A DNA stretch of 24,257 nucleotides from a virus. A program made the translations under genes and the position numbers. The stretch lies in the IMG/VR virus record IMGVR_UViG_3300029892_000122, positions 1-24,257 of that record; one strand, 5' to 3'. Positions 4,994 to 24,257 of this stretch are shown here, piece by piece. Under the pieces are notes generated by a model, which did no database searches, was not told the origin of the DNA, and was given only the letters and a program-made list of their open reading frames with translations. Positions within the stretch are counted from its first letter, which is position 1. Each line of letters opens with the position of its first letter.

Positions 4994-5015
4994 TCCTGCA
5001 CCTGACAGAAACACT

Positions 5016-6471: not shown

Positions 6472-6473
6472 GT

Positions 6474-6773: not shown

Positions 6774-6779
6774 TGGGTA

Positions 6780-6808: not shown

Positions 6809-6813
6809 GAACG

Positions 6814-6835: not shown

Positions 6836-6864
6836 CGGCATCTCGTTGCAATTCAGGAGGTCGG

Positions 6865-8111: not shown

Positions 8112-8176
8112 GTTGATCTCCTTGGTAGGTCACTTGGTTAGGGCCGACTTGGTGTTGCTGCACCTTGCCTGCCCGC

Positions 8177-8410: not shown

Positions 8411-8436
8411 TGCCGGTTCCTTGGCTGAGAATTGAG

Positions 8437-8473
8437 ACAATGAGAATATAGAACAATGAGAGAATGAGCGCAA
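8437..8473 (-). promoter_or_regulatory. Putative internal promoter with repeated operator
   Basis: On the minus strand TTGCGC (8468-8473) and TATATT (8445-8450) are 17 bases apart. Two perfect copies of TCTCATTGT lie 16 bases apart (8453-8461 and 8437-8445 on the given strand as ACAATGAGA), flanking the spacer and the -10. The pairing of a good -10 with helically spaced repeats suggests a regulated promoter for the small accessory genes at 6865-8410. Confidence 0.45.
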
Positions 8474-8483
8474 GCGGAATATT

Positions 8484-8825: not shown

Positions 8826-8845
8826 CGTTTTGCTCTCCTGCTTTG

Positions 8846-9133
8846 TCAGTGAATGTGTTCGCCTGATTCCTTGCGGCGTTCTTCGCCATCAATGGCAACA
8901 ATTTCGCCCAGGCGGGGCTCAACCTTCTGCACCATCGATTCAATGCGCTGGGCAAGCTCGGCGGCTGCATAGGCGATCGTCATGGCGGATCCAACAGGAT
9001 CGCTCTCGTACAGGACATGGCCAACATGATCGCGGGCGGCATTGGCCAAATCGCGCGCATCGCGTGCGGCGTAGTTCAATAAGTCACGGGAAACTTCGGC
9101 CAGGCTGACGGCCGTCGATGCGAGCTTATCCAT
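8846..9133 (-). CDS. Hypothetical helical phage protein
   Basis: This encodes 95 residues from MDKLASTAVSLAEVS. The ATG at 9133 overlaps the upstream gene's end by 8 bases; the longer frame to 9205 would run deeper into that gene. It is almost entirely Ala-rich helix (NYAARDARDLANAARDHVGH, then GSAMTIAYAAAELAQRIES), with an acidic/basic tail ending GEHIH. No family recognised. Confidence 0.65.
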   Translation of the reverse strand: MDKLASTAVSLAEVSRDLLNYAARDARDLANAARDHVGHVLYESDPVGSAMTIAYAAAELAQRIESMVQKVEPRLGEIVAIDGEERRKESGEHIH

Positions 9134-9467
9134 GGGCCAGCCCTTTCTCGGTTGCCCGCCAGCGCCGGTAGGACGGATGGCGTGGATCGTGGACGCGCTC
9201 GACAAACCCCTGTGATTCCAGATAACGCAGGCCCCAGGTAATCATCCCGCGTGATGCGTTGAGGTTGAACCTCAGTTGTCCGTGTTCCATGTGCTGCGGA
9301 TGAACCCGGCGCAGTTCGGCCAGGACGCGCTCAGTTGCACTGCCGGCCCGGATGCCAGTCGGGAACGGATTCATCGGCCAAGGTGGGCGCTCGGACTCGG
9401 CCTTCACTGCTGCCGCTGACGCGCTGGCGCTCAATAGCATTTCGAACATCGATGGAACTCTGCTCAT
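9126..9467 (-). CDS. Winged-helix DNA-binding protein
   Basis: This encodes 113 residues from MSRVPSMFEMLLSAS; the start lies in an ATGA overlap with the primase stop (9464-9467). The last ~70 residues form a clear winged helix-turn-helix: ATERVLAELRRVHPQHMEHG, RGMITWGLRYLESQGFVERV and a wing with RHPSYRRWRATEKG. This resembles MarR/PadR-like or phage replication-accessory wHTH proteins. It is probably a transcription or replication factor acting on phage DNA. The N-terminal ~40 residues are Ala/Ser-rich and less ordered. Confidence 0.7.
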   Translation of the reverse strand: MSRVPSMFEMLLSASASAAAVKAESERPPWPMNPFPTGIRAGSATERVLAELRRVHPQHMEHGQLRFNLNASRGMITWGLRYLESQGFVERVHDPRHPSYRRWRATEKGLAHG

Positions 9468-10384
9468 GCCGCCACCTCGTCGGCAAAATCTGTTCCGATC
9501 CGCTCTGGCAGTTTCACCTCGACGGACAACCCGGCCGCGATCAGCCGTTTCGCCAGCCCCCAGGCTGCCGCCTGTCCGGTGCTGCTCACGTCGTTGTCGC
9601 CAAATACGATCACCTTGCGAACCTCCTTTGGGGGCTGAAATGACTCTACGCCGACTGCCGAGACGCACGACCAGACCGGCACGCCGAAAAGCTGCCGAGC
9701 CGCAAGCGCCGTCTCGATACCCTCGGCAACGCCGAGCACTTCGCCGGCCTGGTGCAGACGAATCGCTGCCCCCTTGATCGGCTTGCCTGGCATGAGCTTC
9801 TTCGGGCACGGCACTAGTGCCTTGCGGCCGTCTTGCAGGTACGTCCTATGCAACGTTGCACCCCTGCCGTCCGGCCCGGTCACGAGCGCCACCAGCGCCG
9901 GGAACTTGCCGAGCGTGTCGCCGCCGTCGCGATAGACGAGGCCGGGGTGCAGCCGCAGCGCCGACATGGGCAGGTCGACATGCAAGCCGCGCCCGGCCAT
10001 GTAGCGCATCGCCTCGTCGCACTCGCGCAGCGGTGCCGCCTCAGACCAGACGCGGCGCAGAACGCGCAACTTTTCCTCGTCGCTGAAAGTCGGCGCTGGC
10101 GGGACGGCAGCAACGGTGCCGACGAGCTGCTCGACCTCGCGGGCGGCATCGCGGAATGACCAGCCCTTGAGGTTTTGCAGCAGCGTGAAGCCGTCGCCAG
10201 CGCCGCAGTGCGAGCAGAAGAACGTGCCGCGCCCGTCCTTGTCGTCGAACCTGAATCGATCCTTGCCGCCGCAGACGGGGCAGGCCGTGTGCTTGCCGGT
10301 CAGGAAAGCGGCATCGACGCCGAGCGCTGTGAGGATGCCGGGCCAGCGGCCGGTCGCCGCTTCGCGAACGTCAGGCCGTTGCAT
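9464..10384 (-). CDS. Phage primase (zinc finger plus TOPRIM)
   Basis: This encodes 306 residues from MQRPDVREAATGRW; the longer open frame to 10906 lies antisense-like across the helicase gene and is rejected. A zinc-binding primase domain is visible (C35-P-V-C38, FFC57-S-H-C60, with GKDRFRFD between). The TOPRIM core has VAEGIETAL (E221) and FGDND (D263, D265), the metal-binding acidic residues. This is the P4-alpha/T7-type primase layout, here without the fused helicase. The helicase is a separate gene just upstream, overlapping by 14 bases. Role: makes RNA primers for phage DNA replication. Confidence 0.9.
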   Translation of the reverse strand: MQRPDVREAATGRWPGILTALGVDAAFLTGKHTACPVCGGKDRFRFDDKDGRGTFFCSHCGAGDGFTLLQNLKGWSFRDAAREVEQLVGTVAAVPPAPTFSDEEKLRVLRRVWSEAAPLRECDEAMRYMAGRGLHVDLPMSALRLHPGLVYRDGGDTLGKFPALVALVTGPDGRGATLHRTYLQDGRKALVPCPKKLMPGKPIKGAAIRLHQAGEVLGVAEGIETALAARQLFGVPVWSCVSAVGVESFQPPKEVRKVIVFGDNDVSSTGQAAAWGLAKRLIAAGLSVEVKLPERIGTDFADEVAA

Positions 10385-11879
10385 GGCTGCCTCCCTGGTC
10401 GCGGCGCTTGGCGTGCGCGATCTGGCGCGACTTGATCCAGGACAGGATTTCCGGCGTCGGCGTAGCGGATACCTTGCGCAGCCCGGCGGGATGGCGGCCG
10501 TCGAAGAATTCCGCGTACTTGTGCCACGCCCAGCCGTCCTGATAGCCGCGCGTCCTCGCGTAGCCGAGCAACTGCGAAAAGACCCACTGCCCGCTTTCCT
10601 TGCGGATCGGCTTCTTGACGCGCTTGACCTTCTCGAGCTCGCCGTCGCCGACGACGATTTCTGACTGGCGCTCCGGCGCGAAGCCGCACTGCGGGCAGGC
10701 ATGCACCTTCGCCGGCTTGACGAATGCGCACTTCGGGCAGGGCTTCGGCAGCGGCTCCTTGCGCTCTTGTCCCTTGCCTGCCTGGGCCGGCTTGCCGTCG
10801 TGGAGAAACAGCGGCAGGTCGTCGGTTGCGAAGCCCAGCCGCTTGACCGTGCCGCTGTGGTCGAGCACCAGGGCGCGCTCCTTGCCCTCGTGCGGGCGCA
10901 GGACACGGCCGATCATCTGCAGGTACCGGATCAGGCTTTTTGTCGGGCGGGCGAGAATCAGCGTTCGGCAGGCCGGAAAATCCCAGCCTTCGGAGAGGAT
11001 ACCGACATTGCTGATGACCGTCGTCTCGCCGCTGGCGATGCGGCTCAGGATCGCGCGGCGCTCGTCGTCATCGGTGAAGCAGTCAATGTGCTCTGCGCGC
11101 ACGCCGGCCGCCCGGAACTGCTCAACGATATGCTTGCTGTGCGCGATGCTGGCGGCGAATACCACCGTTGGCGTGCCGGCGGCAAGGCGCTGCCAGTGGG
11201 TCACGATGTCGCCGATCAGGTGCGGCTTGTCGACCGCCTCGCCGAGCGCCTTGTCGCCGTAGTCGATTTCACCGAAGGCGTTGCGCGCCGTCTTCACACC
11301 GGTCAGGTCGGGCTCGGCCGGCGCGAAGTAGTCGGCATCAACGAGGAATCCCTGTTCGATCAGATCGCCAATGTGTGCCGCGACAATCATCTGCTCGAAC
11401 AGCGGGCCGTCAAGTTCGGAATATCGCTTGCCCAGCCCGACCGAGAACGGCGTCGCAGACAGGCCGATGATGGGCCGAGCGGAGTTGCTGAACACGACCT
11501 GCCGGAACTTCGACGAGCCGGCAACGGCATGGGCCTCATCGATCACGATCACGTCGCAATCCGGGAAGCCGCGCCGGGCTACCGTGTCGATGCTCCCGAC
11601 CAGGACAGGTTGGTGCGTGTCGCGCGTGTTGTCGGCCTGGATGATGCCGTGCTCGATCCCGGAGGCGTAGAAGCGCCGGCTCGCCTGCTCGACCAGGTGA
11701 ATCCGGTTTGCCAGGAAGATCGCCCGCTTGCCTTTCGCTTGGGCGCCCTTGATGATCGACAAGGCCATCTCGGTTTTGCCGCTGCCGGTCGGTGAGTAGA
11801 GCATCAGGCGTTGAGCACCCCCAGCCAGGGCAAGGCGCAGGGCATCGACGGCGGAGGTTTGATAGTTGCGGAGTTTCAT
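10371..11879 (-). CDS. Superfamily II DEAH-type helicase with zinc ribbon
   Basis: This encodes 502 residues from MKLRNYQTSAVDALRLAL. Motifs are in order: Q-like start, Walker A PTGSGKT (30-36), DEAH (114-117), SATP (141-144), the motif IV-V region with SEGWDFP (296-302) and motif VI QMIGRVLR (321-328). A four-cysteine zinc ribbon follows (C381, C384, C395, C398), then a basic C-terminal segment with a W-rich patch. This matches phage-borne SF2 helicases of the UvsW/RecG-like or 'DEAD/DEAH box helicase' type found next to primase. It overlaps the initiator-like gene by 4 bases (ATGA). Role: unwinding duplex or branched DNA in phage replication; whether it is the replicative helicase cannot be told from the sequence. 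Confidence 0.92.
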   Translation of the reverse strand: MKLRNYQTSAVDALRLALAGGAQRLMLYSPTGSGKTEMALSIIKGAQAKGKRAIFLANRIHLVEQASRRFYASGIEHGIIQADNTRDTHQPVLVGSIDTVARRGFPDCDVIVIDEAHAVAGSSKFRQVVFSNSARPIIGLSATPFSVGLGKRYSELDGPLFEQMIVAAHIGDLIEQGFLVDADYFAPAEPDLTGVKTARNAFGEIDYGDKALGEAVDKPHLIGDIVTHWQRLAAGTPTVVFAASIAHSKHIVEQFRAAGVRAEHIDCFTDDDERRAILSRIASGETTVISNVGILSEGWDFPACRTLILARPTKSLIRYLQMIGRVLRPHEGKERALVLDHSGTVKRLGFATDDLPLFLHDGKPAQAGKGQERKEPLPKPCPKCAFVKPAKVHACPQCGFAPERQSEIVVGDGELEKVKRVKKPIRKESGQWVFSQLLGYARTRGYQDGWAWHKYAEFFDGRHPAGLRKVSATPTPEILSWIKSRQIAHAKRRDQGGSHATA

Positions 11880-12406
11880 TTTCCACCCCCCGGATTTTTT
11901 TGCTGGCCGCCGCCGTGTACACTCTCCGTAGGTAGACCATTGCCCCCTTGGCTAGGAATATCCAGCCCACTACGCTCCAGCCCATTACATTCCACTACAG
12001 CGGAACGCGACGCGACGCGATGCGGTCGCGTCATCATCGCGTCATCATCGCGTATCTGTCGCGTTGCTATCGCGTCAGGGTCGGGAGCCGGCAACTGACT
12101 CGCCCGCTCCTTGTTGTTGATGACCTGCAAGCGTGCGAATTCAGGAATGAACGCAAGCTGCTCACCATTGGCGACGTAGGGAACAACGAAGCTAGCGGAC
12201 ACGAGCTCATCAGCAAGCGAATTGATGTCGCAGGCGTCGAGTGGCAGATAGCGGAGCCGCAATGTTTTGGGATGCCATACAAGGCGGCCTTCGCGGTCAG
12301 CCTCAAGCCAGGTGGCGATGTAGAGCAGGCGCGCGAGCGGCGACAGTTCGGCGATATAGGCGTTGCTGAAAAAGTCGCGGGAGATTGAGCGATAGAGTAC
12401 TGTCAT
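11876..12406 (-). CDS. Replication initiator-like phage protein carrying an internal iteron array
   Basis: This encodes 176 residues from MTVLYRSISRDFFSNAYI. The ATG at 12406 overlaps the next-upstream gene by 4 bases. The N-terminal ~100 residues (SPLARLLYIATWLEADREGR, LRLRYLPLDACDINSLADEL, VVPYVANGEQLAFIPEFARL) match the winged-helix N-terminal domain of phage replication proteins that bind the origin. The rest is low-complexity, unlike the well-ordered front, and contains an 11-bp-period DNA repeat (12005-12080). By analogy with lambda O, where the origin lies inside the initiator gene, this is a likely initiator with its origin. The end (GGGQQKNPGGGK) is disordered. Confidence 0.75.
   Translation of the reverse strand: MTVLYRSISRDFFSNAYIAELSPLARLLYIATWLEADREGRLVWHPKTLRLRYLPLDACDINSLADELVSASFVVPYVANGEQLAFIPEFARLQVINNKERASQLPAPDPDAIATRQIRDDDAMMTRPHRVASRSAVVECNGLERSGLDIPSQGGNGLPTESVHGGGQQKNPGGGK
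12005..12080. repeat. Iteron-like array, candidate phage replication origin
   Basis: Five consecutive 11-bp units each begin TCGCGT (starts 12026, 12037, 12048, 12059 and 12070); the first two are identical (TCGCGTCATCA). Just to the left, three overlapping copies of the complement ACGCGA run at 5-bp steps (12005-12020), giving a 7-bp inverted repeat GACGCGA/TCGCGTC around TGCGG. Eleven is not a multiple of three, so the periodicity is at DNA level and not a protein repeat. It lies inside the initiator-like gene, as origins do in lambdoid phages. Nearby DNA is only modestly AT-rich. Confidence 0.6.
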
Positions 12407-12585
12407 AGCGCACCCCCAATCTGCCCGATGGCCTGCAGGCGGATCGAAGCGGCACGGCGCTGGGCAATCTCGACCGGACAATGCGGCGTAGGATTCGCCT
12501 TGTTCAGTTCCCCCTGAATTGCCGCTTTACCGACATCGCCGGCCCGCATGCCGGCTTTGTCTTTTGTGAGGTCAGGCCGTCGCAT
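12403..12585 (-). CDS. Small basic phage protein
   Basis: This encodes 60 residues from MRRPDLTKDKAGMRAGD. AGGAGG lies 6 bases before the ATG at 12585, which fixes the start; it overlaps the HTH gene upstream by 14 bases and the initiator gene downstream by 4. The N-terminus is basic, followed by a short helix (VGKAAIQGELNKANPTP) and a second helix (EIAQRRAASIRLQAIGQIGG). No family recognised. The position between regulator and initiator suggests an early regulatory or replication-accessory role. Confidence 0.65.
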   Translation of the reverse strand: MRRPDLTKDKAGMRAGDVGKAAIQGELNKANPTPHCPVEIAQRRAASIRLQAIGQIGGAL

Positions 12586-12907
12586 GGCGGGCCTCCTGAT
12601 TCTTCGCACGTGCCTCTATGGACAGCCTGGCACGGCGCTTATGCAGTTCGCCGCGCTTTTCAGTTTCAGCCTCGGCCTTGGTAGCGAAATCGACGAGGAA
12701 CTGCGCAACAACATCCGAGCGCCAGCGGCGGGAGTTCGTCGATACCAGGATGCCCTGCGGAAATTCGCCGGCCGCCACCATCTTCCAGACGGTTTGCGGA
12801 GATCGGCCAATGGCCAGCGCTACGGCGCGGACATCGAGCAGGATGAAGGGGATATGAGCTTGATTCGCGCTGGCAAAGGCGAGCGCTGCGTGTTGCTTGG
12901 TTTGCAT
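12572..12907 (-). CDS. Helix-turn-helix regulator (excisionase/AlpA-like fold)
   Basis: This encodes 111 residues from MQTKQHAALAFASANQAH, with AGGAG 7 bases before the ATG at 12907. Residues about 22-75 (LLDVRAVALAIGRSPQTVWK, MVAAGEFPQGILVSTNSRRW, RSDVVAQFLVDFA) have the MerR/AlpA-type HTH pattern used by phage excisionases and early regulators. The C-terminal ~35 residues are Lys/Arg/Glu-rich helix. It is the first gene of the replication operon after the ~250-bp regulatory region, and lies near the integrase, consistent with control of early transcription or excision. Confidence 0.75.
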   Translation of the reverse strand: MQTKQHAALAFASANQAHIPFILLDVRAVALAIGRSPQTVWKMVAAGEFPQGILVSTNSRRWRSDVVAQFLVDFATKAEAETEKRGELHKRRARLSIEARAKNQEARHATA

Positions 12908-13156
12908 GGACGTGCTCCTTGCATGCCAGCATCGTTCTCTGCCCCGCTGGCAACTATCAAGGTCGCACTCCTGCGCAACTGCTAATTGTCGGTTTATGCT
13001 CGAGACGGCCTTGAACAATCCAAGGCGCACCTCATGCGCACCCACCGTTACTACTCAACTACAGGGCGAATCCTATACGCGCATGGCGCAGAAACTGCAC
13101 ATTACTAGACGATGATAAATATAAATCGCATTCGATAGTGTGATAGGTAGCGGCAA
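12908..13156. promoter_or_regulatory. Regulatory region upstream of the replication operon
   Basis: This 249-bp gap lies between the integrase stop and the first operon gene. GCGCACC occurs twice with an 11-bp period (13025-13031 and 13036-13042), a possible site for a dimeric or cooperative regulator. An AT-rich patch lies at 13112-13140. I could not place a convincing promoter, though the operon should start here. Short plus-strand frames exist but lack support. Confidence 0.35.
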
Positions 13157-14389
13157 TCACGCAACCTGCCGGAACGGAACCACATTGAACGCCTCGCCCT
13201 TCTCGGCGGCTTCGAGCTTCGCGGCCCAAAGCTCTAGAGCGCGGCGGCGCTCAGTGAGATAGTCGTGCTTGTCGTAAATTGCGACCAGCCCGCCTAGAGA
13301 GTGATTCAGGCAGCGCTCGGCGACGATCAGGTCGACGCCCAAGGCGCCCAGGTGACTGCGGGCTGTGCTGCGCAGATCGTGGGGCGTCACATCGGCGAAT
13401 GGGGCCGATAGCTTTTCCATTGCCCGGTTCAGGGTGCCTCGGCAGATGGTTGTAGATCCGCGGCGCTGCCTGGCGGGCAATACCATCGGAGAATTCCCGG
13501 CCAGGGCGCGAAGCTCTGTGAACTTGCCGACCACCCAAGGCGCCAAGGGTATGACGAAATCACGGCGTTCCTTGCGCCGGCCGGTTTTCTGGTTCTCGGG
13601 TGGAACGGTCCAGGTGCCCGCCTCGAAGTCGATATGCTCCCATCGCGCCAGTGCAAGTTCCGACTTGCGAACGGCCGTGGCCATAATGATCTTCATGGCG
13701 AGTTCGTTTTCCTTGCCCAGCGCCGGCAGCGCTTTGAGGAATGGGGCAAGCTGGCTATCGGTCAGGCTCAGTCTTTCGCGTGGGGCGTCCTGTTGTCCGA
13801 TGATGGCCGGCGCCTTGAGGATTGCGCAGGGGTTCGATTCAACCAGGTGTTTGTGGATGCCATGAGAAAAGATTGCCGCGACCATGGCGAAGGCGTTGAT
13901 GGCGACAGTCTTTGACCGCGTGGCGATCCGCTCGATCAGGGCAACGATCTCGCTGGGCTTGATTTCGGCAGCAGGCAGGACGCCGATGCGCGGCAGGATG
14001 TCCTTGTCGAGGTAGCGCCTCAGTTCGGCCTGGTACCGTGCCGACTTCGACGGTGCGACCTTCTGCGTGTAGTCCTCGGCCAGTTCCTTGAAGGTATTGG
14101 CCATGGCGCGTTCGATCTTTTCGATACGTTTGACGGCGGCAACGTCTTTCCCGCCCATCACCTCGACGCGCTTGGTTGCGGCCAGTTCGCGCGCTTTTGC
14201 CAATCCGATGTCCGGATACCTGCCTAGCGTGAGTTCGCGCTGCTTGCCGCCCCAGCGGTAACGCAGCAACCAGGATGCGGTTCCTCGCGCCGACAGCGTG
14301 AATGTCAGGCCATCCCCATCAGCCTTTCCCGGTACCGGCTTTCCGGCCTTGATCCACTTCCGGATCTGGATGTCGCTCAATTTGCCCAT
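13157..14389 (-). CDS. int: P4-type tyrosine integrase
   Basis: This encodes 410 residues from MGKLSDIQIRKWIKAGKP. The N-terminal DUF4102-like arm-binding domain (LTFTLSARGTASWLLRYRWG, LGRYPDIGLAKARE) is followed by a SAM-like core-binding domain (about 95-200) and the catalytic domain. Catalytic residues are visible: R241 (TAVRKSELALARW), H337-x-x-R340 (TPHDLRSTARS), H363 and the nucleophile Y372. Length is normal for the family (about 400). It integrates and, with an excisionase, excises the element. It is transcribed towards the phage interior, with a promoter and repeat array between it and rnr, which places the attachment site there. Confidence 0.95.
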   Translation of the reverse strand: MGKLSDIQIRKWIKAGKPVPGKADGDGLTFTLSARGTASWLLRYRWGGKQRELTLGRYPDIGLAKARELAATKRVEVMGGKDVAAVKRIEKIERAMANTFKELAEDYTQKVAPSKSARYQAELRRYLDKDILPRIGVLPAAEIKPSEIVALIERIATRSKTVAINAFAMVAAIFSHGIHKHLVESNPCAILKAPAIIGQQDAPRERLSLTDSQLAPFLKALPALGKENELAMKIIMATAVRKSELALARWEHIDFEAGTWTVPPENQKTGRRKERRDFVIPLAPWVVGKFTELRALAGNSPMVLPARQRRGSTTICRGTLNRAMEKLSAPFADVTPHDLRSTARSHLGALGVDLIVAERCLNHSLGGLVAIYDKHDYLTERRRALELWAAKLEAAEKGEAFNVVPFRQVA

Positions 14390-16845: not shown

Positions 16846-16930
<85 letters not shown>

Positions 16931-16956
16931 TAATGCAGACTGCGAGAACGTGATAG

Positions 16957-16980
16957 CGGCCACTGACAAGTGGCCGTTTT
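16957..16980 (+). terminator. Intrinsic terminator after tRNA-Leu
   Basis: A perfect 8-bp stem CGGCCACT/AGTGGCCG with loop GACA (16957-16976) is followed by TTTTCATTT. It lies 26 bases after the tRNA. Between it and the higBA promoter, a TTTCCGCAAT decamer occurs twice (16983-16992 and 17002-17011); its role is unknown. Confidence 0.85.
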
Positions 16981-17135
16981 CATTTCCGCAATCCTACATT
17001 TTTTCCGCAATTCGCACTACATGCCGCGGCAAATATCTTCGTGCGGAAGCGATCTGAGCCCCATGATCGAGGCGGCAAAGAGGCAGGTAAGGCCTGTGCT
17101 GGTCTCGTCAGGGCTGATCAGTTGAACCGGTTGGC

Positions 17136-17163
17136 TTGACAAATCCCAATATGGGACTATATT
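17136..17163 (+). promoter_or_regulatory. higBA promoter with palindromic operator
   Basis: A perfect TTGACA (17136-17141) and TATATT (17158-17163) are 16 bases apart. The spacer holds the dyad TCCCA-ATA-TGGGA (17144-17156), so an antitoxin bound there would block polymerase. The higB ATG is 6 bases after the -10, so the expected transcript start falls almost at the ATG (very short leader). Confidence 0.8.
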
Positions 17164-17169
17164 TCTCCC

Positions 17170-17475
17170 ATGCGAGTCATTGCCGTCAGCTGCCTGCGCA
17201 CTTTCTGGGGGAAAAACCCGGATGCCGAGCAGTCATTGAAGTCCTGGGTGGATGAGGCGAAGAAAGCGGCTTGGCGCACACCGGCCGACATCAAGGGGCA
17301 GTACCGCAGCGCCAGTGTCCTCAAGAGCCGGCGGGTAGTCTTCAACATCAAGGGCAATGACTATCGCCTGGTGGTTGCGGTAGCGTATCGCTACCAGGCT
17401 GTCTACGTGAAATTCATCGGCACGCATGCTGAGTACGATGCGGTTGATGCCGAAACTGTCGATATGGGGCAATGA
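17170..17475 (+). CDS. higB: HigB toxin
   Basis: This encodes 101 residues. The HigB family pattern is clear: MRVIAVSCLRTFWGKNPDAE, SLKSWVDEAKKAAWRTPADI, VVFNIKGNDYRLVVAVAYRY and YVKFIGTHAEYD near the end. Family knowledge: HigB is a RelE-fold, ribosome-dependent mRNA interferase that arrests translation when the labile antitoxin is lost. Toxin precedes antitoxin by 1 base (TGACATG), the classic higBA order. It lies between a host tRNA and a phage-derived island, where it would stabilise the neighbouring DNA. Confidence 0.93.
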   Translation: MRVIAVSCLRTFWGKNPDAEQSLKSWVDEAKKAAWRTPADIKGQYRSASVLKSRRVVFNIKGNDYRLVVAVAYRYQAVYVKFIGTHAEYDAVDAETVDMGQ

Positions 17476-17476
17476 C

Positions 17477-17854
17477 ATGGAAATCCGTCCGATTCGTACC
17501 AAAGCAGACTACAAGGCCGCGCTTCGAGAGGTATCGGCGTATTTCGATCACGAGCCGGATCCCAAGACGCCGGAAGGGGACCGCTTCGAGGTGTTGCTGA
17601 CCCTCGTAGAGGCATACGAGGCAAAGCACTTCCCGATCGATCTTCCCGATCCTGTCGAAGCCATCAAGTTCCGCATGGATCAGGCCGGGCTGACGCCGAA
17701 GGATCTGGTGCCCGCCATCGGCCGCCTGAACCGCGTCTACGAAATCCTCACCCGCAAGCGCCCTTTGACACTGAACATGATCTGGCGGCTACACGAGAAA
17801 TTCGGCATCCCGGCCGAAAGCCTGATTCGGCCCGCCAAGCTGCAAGCGGCTTGA
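17477..17854 (+). CDS. higA: HigA antitoxin
   Basis: This encodes 125 residues from MEIRPIRTKADYKAALRE; the ATG one base after the higB stop is chosen over an earlier start within higB. The N-terminal part (residues 1-60) is the HigA-type dimer/toxin-binding region (YKAALREVSAYFDHEPDPKT). The C-terminal HTH (about 65-120: IKFRMDQAGLTPKDLVPAIG, VYEILTRKRPLTLNMIWRLH) binds DNA, here probably the dyad in its promoter. GGGG upstream is the likely ribosome binding site. It neutralises HigB and autoregulates. Confidence 0.92.
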   Translation: MEIRPIRTKADYKAALREVSAYFDHEPDPKTPEGDRFEVLLTLVEAYEAKHFPIDLPDPVEAIKFRMDQAGLTPKDLVPAIGRLNRVYEILTRKRPLTLNMIWRLHEKFGIPAESLIRPAKLQAA

Positions 17855-17869
17855 TTCTCGGGGCACGAC

Positions 17870-18031
17870 GTGGCGAAAGGAAAATCCACTAGGCGTGCAG
17901 CGCAAACGCTCACGCTGCTCCCCTCTGTCGGAAAACCAGACTTGGATCGAGCCGCAAAACTGCTGGCGCCGGTGATTGTTTCGATCTGGCAAAATCTTCA
18001 AGGGAAAATACCAGAGAGCAAGGAGCGGTAA
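17870..18031 (+). CDS. Small 53-residue protein, coupled to the next gene
   Basis: A GTG start at 17870 follows an in-frame stop (the higA TGA), and the frame ends TAA overlapping the next ATG (TAATG, 18029-18033). It reads MAKGKSTRRAAQTLTLLPSV, then DLDRAAKLLAPVIVSIWQNL and KIPESKER. It has a basic N-terminus, a hydrophobic helix and a charged end. There is no strong ribosome binding site. The tight coupling suggests one transcript with the 227-residue gene. Family unknown; it could be an unrecognised small partner protein. Confidence 0.55.
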   Translation: MAKGKSTRRAAQTLTLLPSVGKPDLDRAAKLLAPVIVSIWQNLQGKIPESKER

Positions 18032-18714
18032 TGAACGACGATAACAGTTCATCGCATCCTGAATGGCAACAGATTTATCGCTCTTTGATTAAGCGAAAAG
18101 ACGAATCGCTTGAAACGCTCAGATCAGAATCACTTGAAGAGATCGAGGCTTTCATTTTGGATTTTAAGCGAGAGGTGATTACCCTCGATCACCTGCTTTG
18201 GTTTCTCGCATCGGATGCCCTTCGGTTACTCAAGAAAGAGACGCCTCAAAAGCTGCAGAAGGTAGATTTTCTTTTCTACGAATCGTATGCGATCGTTCTT
18301 AGCATCGCCAAAAGAGACATCTTGTCTGGAAAACTGAAAGTCAAGTATCTCGCCACATTGGCCCCGATCAATAGCGAACCATCCGTCATTGCCTGGTGCA
18401 ATAAAAGTCATGCGACAGAAAGAATCGAACTTTCCAAGCCTCATCGAAGAATAGTCGTGACGCTGGGTGATGCGCGTGCCTGGATTGCTGAAAATGAAAT
18501 GCCAATGCCAAGGTGGCTGACAACAGGCCATACCCAATCTGGCATGGAGAAGAATGGATTAATGAGGGTGAGGGAGAGGTACAGAAACAGGTATATCGAA
18601 TTATGTAGGATGGGCTGTAAATCGAAACTTAAAACTCTCGCGAAGGAGTTTAACCGCACCGAGTCGACTGTCCGGAAACACATCTACCCACTGGATAGTT
18701 GGTTTGTGAGGTAG
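18031..18714 (+). CDS. Unknown protein with C-terminal HTH-like segment
   Basis: This encodes 227 residues from MNDDNSSSHPEWQQIYRS, with AAGGAG 5 bases before the ATG. Residues 1-110 are mostly helical (SLEEIEAFILDFKREVITLD, HLLWFLASDALRLLKKETPQ). A middle part (about 120-165) has strands, and the end (KLKTLAKEFNRTESTVRKHI) resembles a HTH. Base and codon use are clearly more AT-rich than the surrounding genes, which points to recent transfer. It is coupled to the 53-residue gene and sits between higBA and a phage-like island, a position typical of cargo or defence genes; no function can be assigned. Confidence 0.75.
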   Translation: MNDDNSSSHPEWQQIYRSLIKRKDESLETLRSESLEEIEAFILDFKREVITLDHLLWFLASDALRLLKKETPQKLQKVDFLFYESYAIVLSIAKRDILSGKLKVKYLATLAPINSEPSVIAWCNKSHATERIELSKPHRRIVVTLGDARAWIAENEMPMPRWLTTGHTQSGMEKNGLMRVRERYRNRYIELCRMGCKSKLKTLAKEFNRTESTVRKHIYPLDSWFVR

Positions 18715-18746
18715 GCCTTCCAAACGGTATTCAGCATAGGCAATAA

Positions 18747-18786
18747 GTAACAATATTTCCCCTTGCTTGTTACCCCGGTAACAAGC
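18747..18786. promoter_or_regulatory. Dyad upstream of the AlpA-like gene, possible Ogr/Delta-type site
   Basis: GCTTGTTACC and GGTAACAAGC (18765-18774 and 18777-18786) form a perfect 10-bp inverted repeat around CC; a third GTAACAA lies at 18747-18753. No T-run follows, so it is more likely an operator than a terminator. Centred about 65 bases before the AlpA-like ATG, it has TGT-N10-ACA, close to the TGT-N12-ACA dyads bound by P2 Ogr/P4 Delta near -55. That link is tentative. Confidence 0.45.
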
Positions 18787-18840
18787 GCAAAGTTCTAGCC
18801 ATGTCTGCAAAGCGCCATTGGGCGCCACTGGAGTTCAGTC

Positions 18841-19101
18841 ATGGCAAATTCATTCAGGATCATGCGCAGTCCCGAGGTCATCCAGATTTCTGGGATGCCT
18901 CGATCAACGCGCGTTCTTCATATCTCCAAGGGCTTGTGGCCCCGTCCAGTCAGTATTGGCGGACGGGCGATCGGATGGCTATCAACCGAAGTTGATGCAA
19001 TCCTCGCCGCGCGGGTAGCGGGTAAATCGGACGAGGAAATCAGGCAGCTCGTCAGGAATCTCGAAGCCCAGCGCACGGCAGCCATGCCGAAGGCGGCATG
19101 A
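18841..19101 (+). CDS. AlpA/Vis-family regulator
   Basis: This encodes 86 residues from MANSFRIMRSPEVIQIS, with GGAG upstream. The AlpA pattern is clear: RSPEVIQISGMPRSTRVLHI, SKGLWPRPVSIGGRAIGWLS, TEVDAILAARVAGKSDEEIR. The MerR-like HTH (about 8-60) is followed by a helical tail. AlpA-family members include the P4 Vis regulator, an excisionase and late-promoter repressor. It lies at the start of the phage-derived island with the dyad at 18765-18786 upstream. The usual G-(x)-S-x-S-T-(I/V)-Y is here GMPRSTRVLH. Its stop overlaps an ATG at 19098, but a following gene is doubtful. Confidence 0.85.
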   Translation: MANSFRIMRSPEVIQISGMPRSTRVLHISKGLWPRPVSIGGRAIGWLSTEVDAILAARVAGKSDEEIRQLVRNLEAQRTAAMPKAA

Positions 19102-19593
19102 ATCTACCAAAAATCCTTCATGCAGCGAAATGCATCGCTATGGTGCAGCAATTCGCAACGGGTTCAAGCAATGGCCGATGCAAAGCCGCGCCAGTGCTGG
19201 CGGACCTCTCCGCAGCCGCTGCACCTGCAATGAAAGTGCCCCAAAAAGCGTGCAGGCGTGGCGGGGGTCACGGCGCGCGCGGGGGGTACTGGCCGCTGGT
19301 CATCGATGACCAGCGCAACTCGCTAAACACCTCAATCAGTCGAGCGAGGACGGCGCAGAAGGCACGATCGCCCGCTTCGGTGATGGCGGGCGTGGACGCA
19401 TCAACGAACCGCTCCAAGGCCTGCCTATGGCCGGCGAGCCCCTATGTTCTTCCTGACCGGCGACCCATGTCCCGCCGATTGGGAAGGGCAAGCATCTGGT
19501 GCTGCAAAACCAGGTGCAGCGGCGCTGGGTGCGCTAACACCCGGCGCCGCACCCAACCACTCGAAAACACCAACCAACCATGAGGGTGAACAC
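19102..19593. other. Poorly coding stretch, possibly a decayed gene
   Basis: This ~490-bp stretch has no convincing gene. An open frame from 19098 (ATGA overlap with the AlpA-like gene) runs to 19583, but past about 19300 its composition (Arg/Ser/Cys-rich) looks out of frame. Between 19310 and 19456 the third frame reads more naturally (SSEDGAEGTIARFGDGGRGR) but has no start, and it continues after a stop as GKGKHLVLQNQVQRRWVR. From 19444 the frame of the next gene is open (FFLTGDPCPADWEGQASGAA). This switching of best frame suggests a frameshifted relic. A 22-bp palindrome sits at its centre. Confidence 0.35.
19294..19315. repeat. 22-bp perfect palindrome
   Basis: CGCTGGTCATC (19294-19304) is followed directly by its exact reverse complement (19305-19315), with no loop. 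No T-run follows, so a terminator is unlikely. It lies in the poorly coding stretch between the AlpA-like gene and the operon with Ogr and tail genes. A dimeric regulator or recombinase site is possible. Confidence 0.6.
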
Positions 19594-20289
19594 ATGAATG
19601 AGAAGTACAGGCCCGGATCGTTGCCCGAGGAGCGCGCCGCGATCGAGAGTTTCAAGGCATTGGGCGAACGCTTCAATGAGGCGGTCGCCAAGCACAAGGA
19701 AATTGCCGAAAAGCAGGACCGGCTATCTGAACTGGCCAGCCAGGTCAATGACGAAGCACGCAATCTGTCGGAAAAGTTTCGGGAAACTATCAAGAGCGGT
19801 GGCAATGATGTCGAGACGATCGCAAAGTTGCGAGGCCAGATGCGGGAAAGCCTTGAGACAGCAGAAATTTACGCAGAATCGGCGCGCGCATGCGAGCGAG
19901 AGGCCAACTTGGCCAAAATCAACGCCGGCGACCTGAGTGGCGCGGCGACCACGCTGCGCGGATCCATCCTTACCATGATTGCAGAGAATGCGCTGAAGGC
20001 GTCTCTTACCGGCCTCGACGATTTATTCGTCGGCATTCGATTGTTCGAGTTGTCGATCAATAGGTTAGACACGCGAATTACTGCGAATCCTGCGGTCGTC
20101 GATCAGCTCGACTACGCAATTAAAGAAGTCCAGACGGAAATCCGACTGAGGTACAAGGATTGGATCATCCGGCAGGAGGGCATGGCTCTAGAAGACCTAT
20201 TCCCCGAACTGTTTGGCCAATTTGAGTTTCACCAGTATCCCAAAATGTCCCCGGCCCAGAAGCACGTGGCGGACAGCGCAGTGCGGTAG
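19594..20289 (+). CDS. All-helical protein, possibly Psu-like
   Basis: This encodes 231 residues from MNEKYRPGSLPEERAAIE; an in-frame ATG at 19444 would add 50 Ala/Gly/Pro-rich residues, but GAGGGTG before 19594 favours the shorter form. Residues about 15-110 form a long coiled coil (FNEAVAKHKEIAEKQDRLSE, DVETIAKLRGQMRESLETAE, IYAESARACEREANLAKINA). More helices follow (120-200) and the end has YPKMSPAQKHVADSAVR. All-helical content, an N-terminal coiled coil and the C-terminal PAQ segment recall P4 Psu, the polarity suppressor/capsid decoration protein. In P4, psu, delta and sid form one late operon, and here an Ogr/Delta gene follows after 3 bases. The match is from memory and weak; Sid-like or unrelated remain possible. 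Confidence 0.4.
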   Translation: MNEKYRPGSLPEERAAIESFKALGERFNEAVAKHKEIAEKQDRLSELASQVNDEARNLSEKFRETIKSGGNDVETIAKLRGQMRESLETAEIYAESARACEREANLAKINAGDLSGAATTLRGSILTMIAENALKASLTGLDDLFVGIRLFELSINRLDTRITANPAVVDQLDYAIKEVQTEIRLRYKDWIIRQEGMALEDLFPELFGQFEFHQYPKMSPAQKHVADSAVR

Positions 20290-20292
20290 ACG

Positions 20293-20511
20293 ATGAAAAT
20301 TAAATGCCCCCATTGCGGTTCTGCACAAACCGCTTTCGTCGGTCAGCACGATACGAGTGCCGGACTAGAACTGTCTTTCCGCTGCGTCAACCCAAAATGC
20401 AACGGCCAGTTTTACGGGCTTCTCACCATGACTCGCGGCGTCGCGCCAGGCACCGAGAAATTCAGCACCAATAAACCCCAGCACTCGCAACAGATCCTGA
20501 CCGACTTCTGA
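20293..20511 (+). CDS. ogr: Ogr/Delta zinc-finger late-gene activator (first copy)
   Basis: This encodes 72 residues. The Ogr/Delta signature C-x2-C-x22-C-x4-C is exact (C5, C8, C31, C36), with the typical FRCVNPKCNGQFYGLLTMTR context and a PG shortly after. Family knowledge: such proteins bind one zinc, contact the RNA polymerase alpha subunit and activate P2/P4 late promoters from dyads near -55. It starts 3 bases after the helical protein's stop and lies just before the tail genes. In P2, ogr lies at the end of the late genes, while P4 keeps delta with psu and sid, so this placement is more P4-like. Residues 45-72 are polar. Confidence 0.88.
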   Translation: MKIKCPHCGSAQTAFVGQHDTSAGLELSFRCVNPKCNGQFYGLLTMTRGVAPGTEKFSTNKPQHSQQILTDF

Positions 20512-20539
20512 AAACACCATTAACCCACGAAAGAAAATC

Positions 20540-20827
20540 ATGGACACCATCACTCTTGAAACCCCCATCCAGCGCGGCGAGACCAAGATCACCGAAATCA
20601 AGCTGCGCAAACCCGCCGCCGGCGAGCTGCGCTGCATCAGCATGCGGTCGATCATCGATCTCAGCGTGGACTCTGTGCTGCTGCTGTTGCCCCGCATCAG
20701 CGACCCTACCCTCACGGATGTCGAGTGTGGGCGAATGGATCCCGTCGACATCATGCAGGCGTCAGGAGTCATCGCAAGTTTTTTCGTCCCGAAACAAGCG
20801 CTGGAAGAAGCCCTGACCAGCTTGTAA
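20540..20827 (+). CDS. Tail assembly chaperone, P2 gpE-like
   Basis: This encodes 95 residues from MDTITLETPIQRGETKIT. The pattern (ITEIKLRKPAAGELRCISMR, then SVDSVLLLLPRISDPTLTDV and DPVDIMQASGVIASFF) matches the P2 gpE/TAC family, which guides tape measure folding during tail assembly. It carries a slippery site (20779-20785) near its end and is followed in the -1 frame by E'. The tape measure gene comes next, the conserved order in P2-like phages. No sheath or tube genes precede it here; instead an Ogr gene does. Confidence 0.85.
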   Translation: MDTITLETPIQRGETKITEIKLRKPAAGELRCISMRSIIDLSVDSVLLLLPRISDPTLTDVECGRMDPVDIMQASGVIASFFVPKQALEEALTSL

Positions 20828-20973
20828 TTCCAGATCGGGTTGAGGATGCCATCGCGGATATCGCCACCGTGTTCCATTGGTCGCTTGAATCCATATCCAC
20901 GATGAGCATCCACGAACTAGCAGTCTGGCACGGCAAGGCGCTTGAGCGATATGGAGTGAACGATGGGCAGTGA
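20540..20973 (+). CDS. E+E' fusion product by -1 frameshift
   Basis: Ribosomes slipping back one base at T-TTT-TTC (20779-20785) would leave the E frame after its ~82nd codon and continue as RPETSAGRSPDQLVIPDRVE, DAIADIATVFHWSLESISTM, SIHELAVWHGKALERYGVND to the stop at 20971-20973, about 145 residues in all. The tail is the P2 GpE (E') domain with its conserved AxVFxW and ELxxWxxxA pattern. The frames differ by exactly -1, and the E' frame has no start of its own. In P2 the same arrangement makes E and E+E' in fixed ratio. Confidence 0.85.
20779..20824 (+). promoter_or_regulatory. Programmed -1 frameshift signal
   Basis: TTTTTTC (20779-20785) is in the T-TTT-TTC register of the E frame. After a 9-base gap, CAAG-CG-CTGG (20795-20804) can pair with CCAGCTTG (20817-20824), forming an 8-bp stem with a 2-base bulge and a 12-base loop. 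Heptamer, gap and stem fit a classic bacterial/phage -1 frameshift signal. The stem overlaps the E stop region. Confidence 0.8.
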
Positions 20974-23605
20974 AAAAGTGAGAATTGAAGTCGTTCTTGC
21001 AGCGATCAACAAGGCCGCTGGCCCTCTGCTTGACGTTGCCAAAGGCAGTAGCGCTGCTGCCAAGGCTCTCAAGGCCGCCAAGGAGCAACTGAAGGGTCTG
21101 AATGACCATCAAGGCAAGATCAACAGCTTCAACGCGGCCGTCGAGGCGTCCCGTAAGGCATCCGCCACCTATCGCGACCAAAAAGCAGCGCTGGCCGAAC
21201 TTGGGACAAAGCTGAACGCGGCCAGGGAGGCGCAGGCCAACATGGTCGGAGCCGTCAAGCTGGCGCGCGCCGAACACAAGCAACTGGCGGCCGCGTTTCG
21301 CAAGGACGACTCAATCCCTGGCTTGGCCAGCAAGCTCTACGATGCCAAGAAAAATCTTGAAAAGCTCGAGGGGCAGTACAGCAGGTCGATCAATGCTACC
21401 CGCCGCTTCAAGGAGGCCATCAAGCTCGCGAATCACGATCTGGATGGCGCAAAGCGCGCCAAGGACCGCGAATCGGAATCGTTGCGCAAGCTTTCCGCCG
21501 CGATGCAGGAAGTCGGTCTCGGCACCAAGGGGCTGGCGGGCAAGCAAGCGGATCTCGCGAAGCAGATCGAGCTGGCCAATTCCAAGGTAGAGAAACAGCG
21601 GAAAATCATGGACGGCCTCGATGCCGCGCACGCGAAGCATGCCAAGCTGATGGGACTGTCGAATCGACTGCGTTCCGGCGGCGCCAAGGTCGCCGGCATT
21701 GGCGCGGGCGTCAATGCCGTTGCAGCGGTACCCGTGGTTGCTTATGCAAAGGCCGAGAATTCGGCAACGCAACTGAAGATCGCCATGATGCAGGCCGGCG
21801 GCAAGGTCGCGACGGAGTTCGAGAAGATCAACGATCTCGCCATGAAGCTGGGCAATCGCTTGCCGGGGACGTCGAGCGACTTCCAGGACATGATGACCAT
21901 GCTGATACGCCAGGGCATGCCGGCGAAAAGCATCCTCGGCGGCCTCGGCGAAGCGACGGCCTACCTGGCCGTGCAGATGCAGATGCTGCCAACCGAGGCG
22001 GCCGAATTCGCAAGCAAGCTGCAGGATGCCACGCGCACCGCCGACAAGGACATGATGGGCCTGATGGACACCATCCAGAAGACCTTCTATCTTGGCGTCG
22101 AAAGAAGCAACATGCTGCAGGGCTTCGCCAAGCTGACCCCTGCCCTGTCCATCATCAAGAAGGAAGGTGCTGCGGCCGCCAAGGCCCTCGCCCCGCTGCT
22201 GGTCTTGACTGACCAGGCTGGCATGGCGGGCGAAGCTGCCGGCAATGCCTATCGCAAGATTTTCCAGAAGAGCATGGACACCGACAAGATCAAGAAGGTG
22301 CTTGATGGCTTGGCGGTGGAAAAGGGTATCAGGCTCAAGCTCGATTTCACGGACGGCAAGGGCGAGTTTGGTGGCCTTGAAAACATGTATGCGCAGCTGG
22401 CCAAGCTGAAGGGGCTCAATACCGAAACCCGACTGGGAGTGATCAAAGATCTCTTCGGCGACGATGCGGAAACGCTTCAGGCACTGTCGCTGATGATCGA
22501 AAAGGGCATCGACGGCTATCGAGACGCCCAGGCGAAGATGGACGCGCAAGCAGACATTCAGCGCCGCGTCAATGAGCAACTGGGTACGTTGCGCAACCTG
22601 TGGGATGCGGCAACCGGCACGTTTACCAATGTCCTTGTCGCGCTCGGCGAATCGATCGGCCCGGAGTTGCACGCCATGACAGAATGGCTTGGCGAACTAG
22701 CGGAGAAAATCCAGCGCTTGGCCAAGGAGAATCCAGGGCTATCCGCCGCCATCATGAAAACCGCTGCTTATGGCGGGATGCTGGCGGTCGCCCTGGGCGG
22801 CCTGGTCGCTACCGCATCTGCTGTCATAGTACCTTTGGCTGCCTTGAAATTCAGCATGGCCTATCTCAGCGTGCATGGATTCGGTCTCTTATCGATACTC
22901 GGAAAAATCGGTGCCGTCTTTCCGCTGATCGGAAACGGCCTACTGTTCCTGGGGCGGGCGATGCTCACCAACCCATTCGGAGTGCTGATCACGGGCGCAC
23001 TGCTGATCTACACCTACTGGGAGCCCATCTCCGGGTTTTTCGGAAAGGTATGGGATGGAGTATCGCGGGCGTTCAAACTGGCCTGGGCTGAAATCAGCCA
23101 GACCATCGAGAACGTCAAGGCGGCCGGCGCGCAAATCATCGATGGCATTCTGGCTGGCATATCGTCCAAATGGGAAGCGCTCAAGGCCAAGATCGCCGAA
23201 TTGGCCAGCATGCTCCCAGAGTGGCTGCGCAAGCCGCTCGATATCAATTCACCATCGCGTGTATTCATGGCGATTGGCGATTCGACGATGGAAGGTCTGG
23301 AGATGGGCATCGCCAGCGGTCAGGGCGGACCGCTTGACGCGCTTTCGCGGGCTGCCAGAAACATTACGGCCGCAGGCGCAGGCATGGTGATTGGAGGGGT
23401 CGCCATGGCGGGCGGTGTGCCAGGCGCCGGCGGCTCAGTATCTGGTGGAGCTGGGCTCGGACAAGGCAATAACTTCAACTTCTATATCTATGCCGCGCCC
23501 GGCATGGATGCGCGCGACATCGCGAATGAGGTCAGAAACGAGATCGCGAGGATCGAACGTGAAAACTCCGCCAGGTCGCGCAGCAGGCTATCCGATAGGG
23601 ATTAA
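20963..23605 (+). CDS. Phage tail tape measure protein (TP901 family)
   Basis: This encodes 880 residues from MGSEKVRIEVVLAAINKA, with GGAG 7 bases upstream and an 11-base overlap with E'. The N-terminal ~250 residues are long Ala/Lys/Gln-rich coiled coil. Then comes the TP901 core (FEKINDLAMKLGNRLPGTSS, LQDATRTADKDMMGLMDTIQ, GMAGEAAGNAYRKIF). Hydrophobic segments span about 595-690 (GGMLAVALGGLVATASAVIV, then MLTNPFGVLITGALLIYTYW). The end has SPSRVFMAIGDSTMEGLEMG and a Gly-rich stretch. Tape measure length sets tail length, and the protein enters the cell envelope on injection. It is normal in size and looks intact, although U, D, sheath and tube genes are absent around it. Confidence 0.93.
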   Translation: MGSEKVRIEVVLAAINKAAGPLLDVAKGSSAAAKALKAAKEQLKGLNDHQGKINSFNAAVEASRKASATYRDQKAALAELGTKLNAAREAQANMVGAVKLARAEHKQLAAAFRKDDSIPGLASKLYDAKKNLEKLEGQYSRSINATRRFKEAIKLANHDLDGAKRAKDRESESLRKLSAAMQEVGLGTKGLAGKQADLAKQIELANSKVEKQRKIMDGLDAAHAKHAKLMGLSNRLRSGGAKVAGIGAGVNAVAAVPVVAYAKAENSATQLKIAMMQAGGKVATEFEKINDLAMKLGNRLPGTSSDFQDMMTMLIRQGMPAKSILGGLGEATAYLAVQMQMLPTEAAEFASKLQDATRTADKDMMGLMDTIQKTFYLGVERSNMLQGFAKLTPALSIIKKEGAAAAKALAPLLVLTDQAGMAGEAAGNAYRKIFQKSMDTDKIKKVLDGLAVEKGIRLKLDFTDGKGEFGGLENMYAQLAKLKGLNTETRLGVIKDLFGDDAETLQALSLMIEKGIDGYRDAQAKMDAQADIQRRVNEQLGTLRNLWDAATGTFTNVLVALGESIGPELHAMTEWLGELAEKIQRLAKENPGLSAAIMKTAAYGGMLAVALGGLVATASAVIVPLAALKFSMAYLSVHGFGLLSILGKIGAVFPLIGNGLLFLGRAMLTNPFGVLITGALLIYTYWEPISGFFGKVWDGVSRAFKLAWAEISQTIENVKAAGAQIIDGILAGISSKWEALKAKIAELASMLPEWLRKPLDINSPSRVFMAIGDSTMEGLEMGIASGQGGPLDALSRAARNITAAGAGMVIGGVAMAGGVPGAGGSVSGGAGLGQGNNFNFYIYAAPGMDARDIANEVRNEIARIERENSARSRSRLSDRD

Positions 23606-23607
23606 CC

Positions 23608-23760
23608 ATGACCAAGAAAAGCAAGGGAACACAGCAGGAGCGCTGGTACGGCATCGACCTCGCCCGCAGAAGCCCGTATCAACCCGGCGGCAATGTAACA
23701 GCGCAGTCAAAGCATAAAACGAGGACCATGCCGGCCCCTCGGAAAGCGGCAGGTAGGTAA
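23608..23760 (+). CDS. Small basic protein between tape measure and second Ogr
   Basis: This encodes 50 residues from MTKKSKGTQQERWYGIDL; the ATG is 2 bases after the tape measure stop and the frame ends TAATG into the Ogr gene (23758-23762). It is very basic and hydrophilic (RRSPYQPGGNVTAQSKHKTR), with no predicted fold. In P2 the gene after T is U, but there is no resemblance. Coupling on both sides supports expression. Confidence 0.55.
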   Translation: MTKKSKGTQQERWYGIDLARRSPYQPGGNVTAQSKHKTRTMPAPRKAAGR

Positions 23761-23981
23761 TGCGATTGAAATGTCCGCACTGTGGCGGGACCGCGCACAT
23801 TCGCACCAGCAGAGATCTGAGCGAAATAACACGCGAACTCAGTATTCAGTGCTTGAACGTCGAATGCTCCCATTCCTGGGTGGCGATCATCGAAGCAGTG
23901 CGAACCATCGCTCCCTCGATGACGCCCAACCCCGCCATACACATCCCGTTATCGCCTCGCGTTGAGAACTGGAGAGCATGA
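23760..23981 (+). CDS. ogr: Ogr/Delta zinc-finger late-gene activator (second copy)
   Basis: This encodes 73 residues. It again has C5-x2-C8-x22-C31-x4-C36 with TAHIRTSRDLSEITRELSIQ between, close to P2 Ogr (HARTSR...) and closer than the first copy. The end (EAVRTIAPSMTPNPAIHIPL) also follows the P2 pattern. Its role would be activation of late promoters with Ogr-type sites. Here it follows the tape measure, as P2 ogr follows the tail genes. The two copies in the island are diverged (the finger is conserved but most other residues differ), so they are not a recent duplication. Confidence 0.9.
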   Translation: MRLKCPHCGGTAHIRTSRDLSEITRELSIQCLNVECSHSWVAIIEAVRTIAPSMTPNPAIHIPLSPRVENWRA

Positions 23982-24115
23982 ACAAGCGCCCGAATGCATT
24001 CCGCATGCCTGGCAAGCGTCGGCTGCCAACGACAATAAAAATGGCCCCCGCAGGGGCCAAAGGTGTTACACATGAAAGAAAGCAGAGACAGCGTAAAGCA
24101 TATCTATCCACATAG
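23978..24115 (+). CDS. Possible small basic protein after second Ogr
   Basis: This encodes 45 residues from MNKRPNAFRMPGKRRLPT, starting in an ATGA overlap with the Ogr stop, with GGAG just upstream. It is very basic (KGVTHERKQRQRKAYLST). A hairpin that acts as a terminator for the opposite strand lies inside it, which lowers confidence that it is a conserved gene. Confidence 0.35.
   Translation: MNKRPNAFRMPGKRRLPTTIKMAPAGAKGVTHERKQRQRKAYLST
24036..24058 (-). terminator. Intrinsic terminator for minus-strand transcription from beyond the right edge
   Basis: A perfect 6-bp stem GGCCCC/GGGGCC with loop CGCA (24043-24058) is followed on the minus strand by ATTTTTATT. It implies minus-strand gene(s) lying right of the window and converging on the tail operon. 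Confidence 0.6.
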
Positions 24116-24257
24116 CCTTCTGCAATGGGCAATGCCCATCGCTGGTTTATGGAAATCGCTTTTACATCTACTGTCGCGGGTTTTTAGACCTGTCCGGTTC
24201 TGTAGCTTTTGAATTGTCCGCTTTTTGGCAGGGGGCGGGAAGCGGCGGAGGGCGTAG
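24116..24257. other. Right-edge stretch without a recognised gene
   Basis: It contains a short inverted repeat ATGGGC/GCCCAT (24125-24139), an AT-rich patch with TTTTTAG, and two TGTCCG words about 24 bases apart. Nothing conclusive is seen. Confidence 0.3.

Follow-up and report, generated by a model that had tools for sequence, protein, structure and literature searches.

A candidate P4-like satellite with a Sid-family protein and its own P2-type tail chaperone and tape measure

The 24,257-bp viral contig IMGVR_UViG_3300029892_000122, analysed here over its entire length and referred to as the window, has in its right part what is probably a P4-like satellite, represented by its left half. 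With the 3' end of a tRNA-Leu gene as its insertion site, the element would parasitise a P2-like phage, and its private tail chaperone (E/E') and tape measure (T) would be built into tails made by the helper. Its late block reads vis/alpA, cos, sid, ogr, E/E', T and ogr, with no head, sheath, tube, baseplate, U or D gene. A satellite of this kind had been suggested by an earlier sequence-only reading of the same DNA, and the suggestion is now supported by recurrence of the block, by complete and bounded copies, and by the Sid-family protein and the cos-like site; in no copy does a P2-like prophage adjoin the element.

Results

Layout of the window and gene content of the island

The window comprises the end of a separate prophage (1-14.4 kb), the host gene rnr with tRNA-Leu(CAG), and, to the right of these, the island. 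About 200 related genomes match the DNA across rnr and the tRNA gene, and the best matches end exactly at 16930; because synteny with these genomes breaks at the tRNA 3' end, the island begins there, to the left of the start at 18841 that had first been proposed. The unrelated prophage right part at 1-14389 encodes a 1172-aa ddrB/LPD38 protein, a Toprim primase, a ResIII helicase and an arm-type integrase, the last of which ends beside rnr, where relatives have rlmB. The features of the island and its boundary are as follows.

16846..16930, + strand: tRNA-Leu(CAG) (ARAGORN); its 3' end is the left island boundary
17170..17854, + strand: higB-higA toxin-antitoxin pair (PF09907 9e-33, phrog_1373); an integrase occupies this slot in relatives
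18031..18714, + strand: conserved satellite protein, 227 aa (tblastn/phmmer; homologues 5' of AlpA in L065, L066 and L156)
18841..19101, + strand: AlpA/Vis-type regulator (PF05930 1.1e-10)
19225..19293, + strand: P2/P4-type cos-like packaging site, core GGCGTGGCGGGG at 19255 (blastn, profile)
19594..20289, + strand: Sid-family capsid-size determination protein, 231 aa, helical (profile, hhalign, HMM)
20293..20511, + strand: Ogr/Delta-like zinc finger 1 (PF04606 4.6e-5, below the curated cut-off; phrog_603)
20540..20827, + strand: tail assembly chaperone E (PF10109 3.4e-12; phrog_103 2.5e-31)
20779..20973, + strand: -1 frameshift site T TTT TTC (20779-20785) and E' extension (slippery heptamer, in frame)
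20963..23605, + strand: tape measure protein T, 880 aa (phrog_28 3e-116; no internal stop)
23760..23981, + strand: Ogr/Delta zinc finger 2 (PF04606 8.4e-17)

All of the genes originally read from the sequence (AlpA, a helical ORF, Ogr, E/E', T and Ogr) are present, with AlpA, E, T and the two Ogr-like fingers confirmed by Pfam and PHROGs, and the accompanying statement that capsid, terminase, sheath, tube, baseplate and U/D genes are absent holds for 16931-24257: E/E' and T are the only virion genes of that interval, which has none for the head, terminase, sheath, tube, baseplate, U or D and thus lacks a phage structural gene set. As in P4-like satellites, an Ogr/Delta activator adjoins sid, and an AlpA/Vis regulator is present. 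The first Ogr-like finger is a weak match, yet it has positional homologues in L160, L105 and L157-L159. Homologues of the 227-aa protein are found at 6692-7474 in L065, 7210-8181 in L066 and 2896-3705 in L167, and the gene stands upstream of AlpA in the window, L065 and L066; neither it nor its homologues matched a Pfam or PHROG family.

No integrase was seen in the island of the window, where the tRNA-Leu gene stands at the boundary and higBA occupies the slot that holds an integrase in L065, L066 and L160. The window higBA genes have approximately 81% nucleotide identity to plasmid-borne higBA of Azospira, Aeromonas and Stutzerimonas. At the other side, the contig stops 276 bp past the second ogr, before the primase region and about where C4 would begin. 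The window contains no direct repeat of the tRNA-Leu 3' end, and the right end of the element therefore lies beyond the contig. With no visible integrase, higBA in its place and such an early end, the window copy may be defective.

The helical protein belongs to the Sid family

The gene upstream of the first Ogr-like finger ends at 20289 and likely starts at the ATG at 19594 and not at 19444. A profile of its family, compared with the PDB, had one real relative, 'Size determination protein Sid' (7jw1_E, 7.5e-11, nearly full length), and profile comparison with hhalign gave P4 Sid a probability of 95% (E 4e-8) and Psu one of 0.14%, so the 'Psu-like?' label first attached to this protein is rejected in favour of the P4 Sid family. 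Several relatives match phrog_6165, the family of P4 Sid itself, and an HMM built without the window sequence recovers both the window protein (7.5e-11) and P4 Sid (1.1e-10). On its own, the window protein has diverged too far to match phrog_6165 directly, and a fold search with its model, which consists of long helices (mean pLDDT 75), returned generic long-helix matches only, an uninformative comparison. As judged from sequence profiles, then, this protein is homologous to P4 Sid. Peptide-pattern searches of viral and genome collections found nothing, the protein being too diverged, and its relatives were located instead by profile search of whole genomes.

A cos-like site lies between AlpA and Sid

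Among the checks proposed at the outset was a search for a cos site to the right of the contig; a helper-type cos-like site was found inside the window, at 19225-19293, where it had been missed in the 490-bp gap separating AlpA from Sid. With P4 cos as blastn query the window matched at 4.7e-5 and most other satellites matched too, with no match in 193 kb of host loci; the reversed query gave 0 matches and shuffled queries a mean of 0.32 loci. A cos profile scored the window site at 1.8e-12 (leave-one-out E 1.1e-6 in 3.3 Mb) and recovered held-out satellites including L160, L157, L090, L092, L093, L167 and L264. It also marked L162, a Rhodocyclaceae P2-like prophage, beside the portal gene, which is the place of P2's own cos. 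Cos-like sites are thus present in nearly all satellites, P4, P2 and L162, and of all the evidence it is the predicted site in the window that speaks most strongly for packaging of the element by a P2-type terminase.

The frameshifted chaperone and the tape measure are intact

The -1 extension that forms E' (VEDAIADIATVFHW...) ends at 20973, inside the start of T, as it does in P2 and KS14, and the slippery heptamer with the ADIA-FHW extension is conserved in P2, KS14, L065, L066 and L252. RNA structure at the E/E' junction is not unusual (z -0.57). Among satellite copies of T, dN/dS is 0.15-0.32 in most pairs and 0.35 and 0.44 in two, with dS near saturation, values which indicate purifying selection and long-term constraint between distant copies. 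In its core, T is close to that of the P2-like phage L097 (73%).

The first reading had also suggested comparing the length of the tape measure with that in co-resident P2-like prophages. In the window, T is 46-64 aa longer than in the nearest phages (880 aa against 816-834 aa in L097 and L002); in L066 it has 873 aa, against 732-733 aa in L099 and L112. The Enterobacterales satellites described below, however, match the length of their donor (877 aa against 875 aa in the phage pair partner). A change of tail length, as predicted from these gene lengths, would not be a general rule but is possible in some members.

The block recurs in bounded elements of other genomes

Searches with the tape measure found P2-like prophages almost everywhere, and two genome loci with a compact block that lacks FI, FII, U and D: L065, in a Sulfuritalea MAG, and L066, in a Rhodocyclaceae MAG. 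A third copy, L160 (genome G669), has an integrase, a primase and both AlpA genes, and L105 and L101 are two metagenomic halves. Each of these five loci has all or part of the series AlpA-Sid-(Ogr)-E-T-Ogr and carries no further virion gene, so the gene set does recur as a compact unit elsewhere, a point on which the initial reading had made its own proposal depend. The Rhodocyclales plan, seen complete or in part in genomes and metagenomes, comprises a tRNA, integrase, AlpA, Sid, Ogr, E/E', tape measure, Ogr, C4 RNA, primase and DUF927.

L066 is a complete 13.6-kb element, bounded by 18-bp direct repeats of tRNA-Arg at 5390-5407 and 18987-19004. Its first half runs from tRNA-Arg through an integrase, a 323-aa protein, AlpA, the helical protein, E/E' and T to Ogr, after which come small genes, a Toprim primase, a DUF927 protein, AlpA, a toxin-antitoxin pair and host genes. 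A P4-type integrase at a tRNA is present in L065, L066, L156, L159, L160, L105 and L252, and an alpha-type primase/helicase (Toprim and DUF927) in L066, L160, L101, L156 and L252. The complete copies have the integrase, primase and cos that were to be looked for, and no tail genes to the right. With Rfam, a C4 antisense RNA was found downstream of Ogr in five relatives (L066, L065, L160, L101 and L156) and an int-alpA RNA in L065 and L156. C4 is an immunity RNA of the P4/P1 type, and the related CI RNA of P4 confers immunity.

No P2-type capsid gene was found in the five host genomes G001, G002, G669, G426 and G641, and these elements are therefore not parts of a resident P2 prophage. Other searches were negative: psu was not found in the window or its Rhodocyclales relatives; phmmer with P4 epsilon as query found none in Rhodocyclales members, a search that could miss a diverged analogue and that covered only a small part of the early region of the window copy; and no strict TGT-N12-ACA Ogr boxes precede the block in the betaproteobacterial members. 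A 168-aa ORF between the first Ogr and E in L160, considered as a candidate Psu, has no similarity to it.

E/E' and T are a repeatedly captured module

None of the Sid-bearing satellites found by profile (L089-L094, L156-L159, L263 and L264) has E-T in the available sequence; most of them share a common plan, and L092-L094 are short contigs. Genomes reached via Sid and not via T therefore number 0 with E-T, which is a poor basis for estimating the frequency of the cassette. As E-T is missing from satellites identified by Sid only, the satellite lifestyle does not depend on the cassette. One of them, L156, is the closest relative of L066 and is inserted in the same tRNA-Arg(CCT) gene.

The cassette is also found in three viral records, L252, L254 and L255, which are Enterobacterales P4-like satellites (P4 integrase 3e-206, Sid and Ogr; tRNA-Leu(CAA) in L252) with E-E'-T after Ogr. 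The segments at 8153-12634 in L252 and at 7297-11778 in both L254 and L255 encode Sid, Ogr and E/E', with a tape measure of 877 aa, in place of psu. Their E-T has 85.5% identity to Klebsiella P2-like phages, and we infer Klebsiella as the host genus. Two Ogr boxes stand in the sid promoter region of L252, at -90 and -52, where P4 has them too. Since sister satellites lack E-T and the Enterobacterales copy was acquired independently, the cassette is a repeatedly captured add-on module.

Five satellite tape measures cluster in the tree (SH-aLRT 94), but the L066 tape measure falls beside those of two P2-like phages. Trees of the T core and of its C-terminal part disagree, and each forces at least three label changes. 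In the Enterobacterales pair, satellite and phage T are 85-98% alike over most of their length and 41-57% over the last ~90 residues; between two phages the last ~90 residues are 62-79% alike. From the conflict between core and C-terminal trees and the changes they force, satellites and phages appear to exchange parts of the T gene. A single ancestral satellite tape measure is unsupported, as the trees conflict, at least three changes are forced and the satellite copies do not form one clade.

Further P2-type genes were observed in related loci. L159 (6709-10815, genome G641) is a Sid satellite of 13.4 kb with 19-bp attachment repeats that encodes a P2-type large terminase subunit (P) of its own and also has a gpS-like gene, and in L263 (9270-11083, G957) a P2-type portal gene (Q) directly follows the Sid-like gene in a satellite-like locus. 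L167 (631-11594, G579) is satellite-like and has a P2-type capsid gene N, a P2 A-like replication gene, Ogr, E, a 761-aa tape measure and a cos-like site inside, without FI, FII, U and D. A small HAD-like protein after Sid (L065 9155-9514; also L089, L092-L094 and L156) takes the slot used by E-T elsewhere.

Discussion

Several accounts of a tape measure in such an island can be weighed against each other. The alternative offered with the first reading was a decayed P2-like prophage, in which E, T and ogr were left after loss of FI, FII, U and D and insertion of unrelated genes. The order E-E'-T-ogr is compatible with deletion of U and D, and the window itself has no integrase; but the same block recurs in complete bounded elements, the host genomes of the relatives lack a P2 capsid gene, T and E are intact and constrained, and Sid, cos and C4 RNA are features of satellites (the cos of P2 lies beside Q, far from E and T). 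This explanation is now largely refuted, and we consider it highly improbable. The cassette could otherwise be helper DNA picked up recently and carried along with no selected role, as might be thought from the 85% identity of the Enterobacterales copy to phage DNA and from the single P2 genes borne by other satellites (P and S in L159, Q in L263). Its position at the same place of the late operon in several lineages, and dN/dS values that are mostly 0.15-0.32 between distant copies, speak against mere carriage and make it improbable.

A third possibility is that E/E' and T act mainly as a weapon, competing with or poisoning helper tail assembly, while the satellite particles use any available tape measure. 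Some satellite and defence proteins are known to act on tail assembly (Rta in PMC12987554, Tai in PMC11364771), and the T core is close enough to the helper type (73% to L097, 85-98% in the Klebsiella pair) for cross-assembly to be plausible. A full-length ruler, under purifying selection along its whole length and accompanied by an intact frameshifted chaperone, is nevertheless more than a poison needs, and the satellite-encoded tape measure of PLE is built into particles (PMC12987554). We regard this explanation as unlikely, though with a better claim than the two preceding ones.

The reading that we prefer remains a P4-like satellite that supplies its own chaperone and tape measure. On this account, growth of the helper would lead Ogr/Delta proteins to activate the satellite late block; Sid would cause the helper capsid protein to assemble small heads that exclude the helper genome; and the private E/E' and T would join tails made of helper sheath, tube and baseplate. 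The resulting particles would have both head size and tail ruler specified by the satellite, with tail length altered only in some members. The likely gain would be independence from the helper's tape measure, both from the entry requirements it brings and from the host or prophage proteins directed against it. Escape from anti-tape-measure proteins, or different entry needs, would fit all cases.

As a group, the new elements share with P4 and P4-like satellites a P4-type integrase at a tRNA, AlpA/Vis, Sid and Ogr/Delta with sid followed by ogr/delta, a Toprim-type primase with a helicase-like protein, a C4-type RNA and a cos of helper type (PMC8628076). Unlike P4, the Rhodocyclales members have no detected psu or epsilon, their Delta function is represented by one or two separate single Ogr fingers, the new elements carry E-E'-T in the late operon, and their hosts are mostly Rhodocyclales and Burkholderiales; P4-like elements without psu are already known (PMC8628076). 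P2-like phages such as KS14, Klebsiella phage ST11-VIM1phi8.4, L097 and L112 are the source of E/E'/T and share the cos type, and differ in having the whole set of head and tail genes.

The closest functional parallel is provided by the PLE satellites of Vibrio phage ICP1, in which chimeric tails contain a satellite tape measure and hub that replace those of the phage (PMC12987554, 2026). The chimeric tails are shorter by 10 nm, and transfer falls by ~99.9% when tmp is deleted; a satellite tape measure in particles has been demonstrated for PLE11 only (PMC12987554). Both systems encode a tape measure and a tail chaperone, and chimeric tails, shown in PLE, are predicted here from genes. PLE belongs to an unrelated lineage with an unrelated helper, PLE11 adds the baseplate hub BhuB, and no Sid-family protein has been described there (PMC12987554), whereas the module described here is a P2-type E/E'-T with a -1 frameshift. 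A putative tmp is also present in cf-PICIs and Vibrio PLE-like elements (PMC12987554, Extended Data Fig. 10). The cf-PICIs make their own capsids, in contrast to the elements reported here, which carry Sid, a protein that in P4 re-sizes the helper capsid; L167, with capsid gene N, E and T, is closer to the cf-PICI type. According to the PLE report, a tape measure gene had not been described in any other satellite (PMC12987554), and our literature search, made outside preprints and subscription journals, found no P4-like satellite that combines Sid with a private P2-type T.

Taken across the family, there seems to be about an even chance that P4-like satellites captured E/E'-T at least three times, in Rhodocyclales and Enterobacterales, to build particles whose head is set by Sid and whose ruler is set by T, as part of a family that swaps chosen helper virion parts singly, the others being terminase, portal and capsid. 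Satellites were thought to use ready-made tails, to which PLE was the first exception (2026). The classic P4/P2-type system now offers several cases of a satellite with its own tail ruler, in a lineage other than that of PLE and alongside Sid and a recognisable cos site, and the capture of tape measures across lineages points to a general satellite strategy. Sister satellites with and without the cassette at one tRNA site offer a tractable system, and satellite tape measures may provide a handle on the roles of tape measures besides the setting of length.
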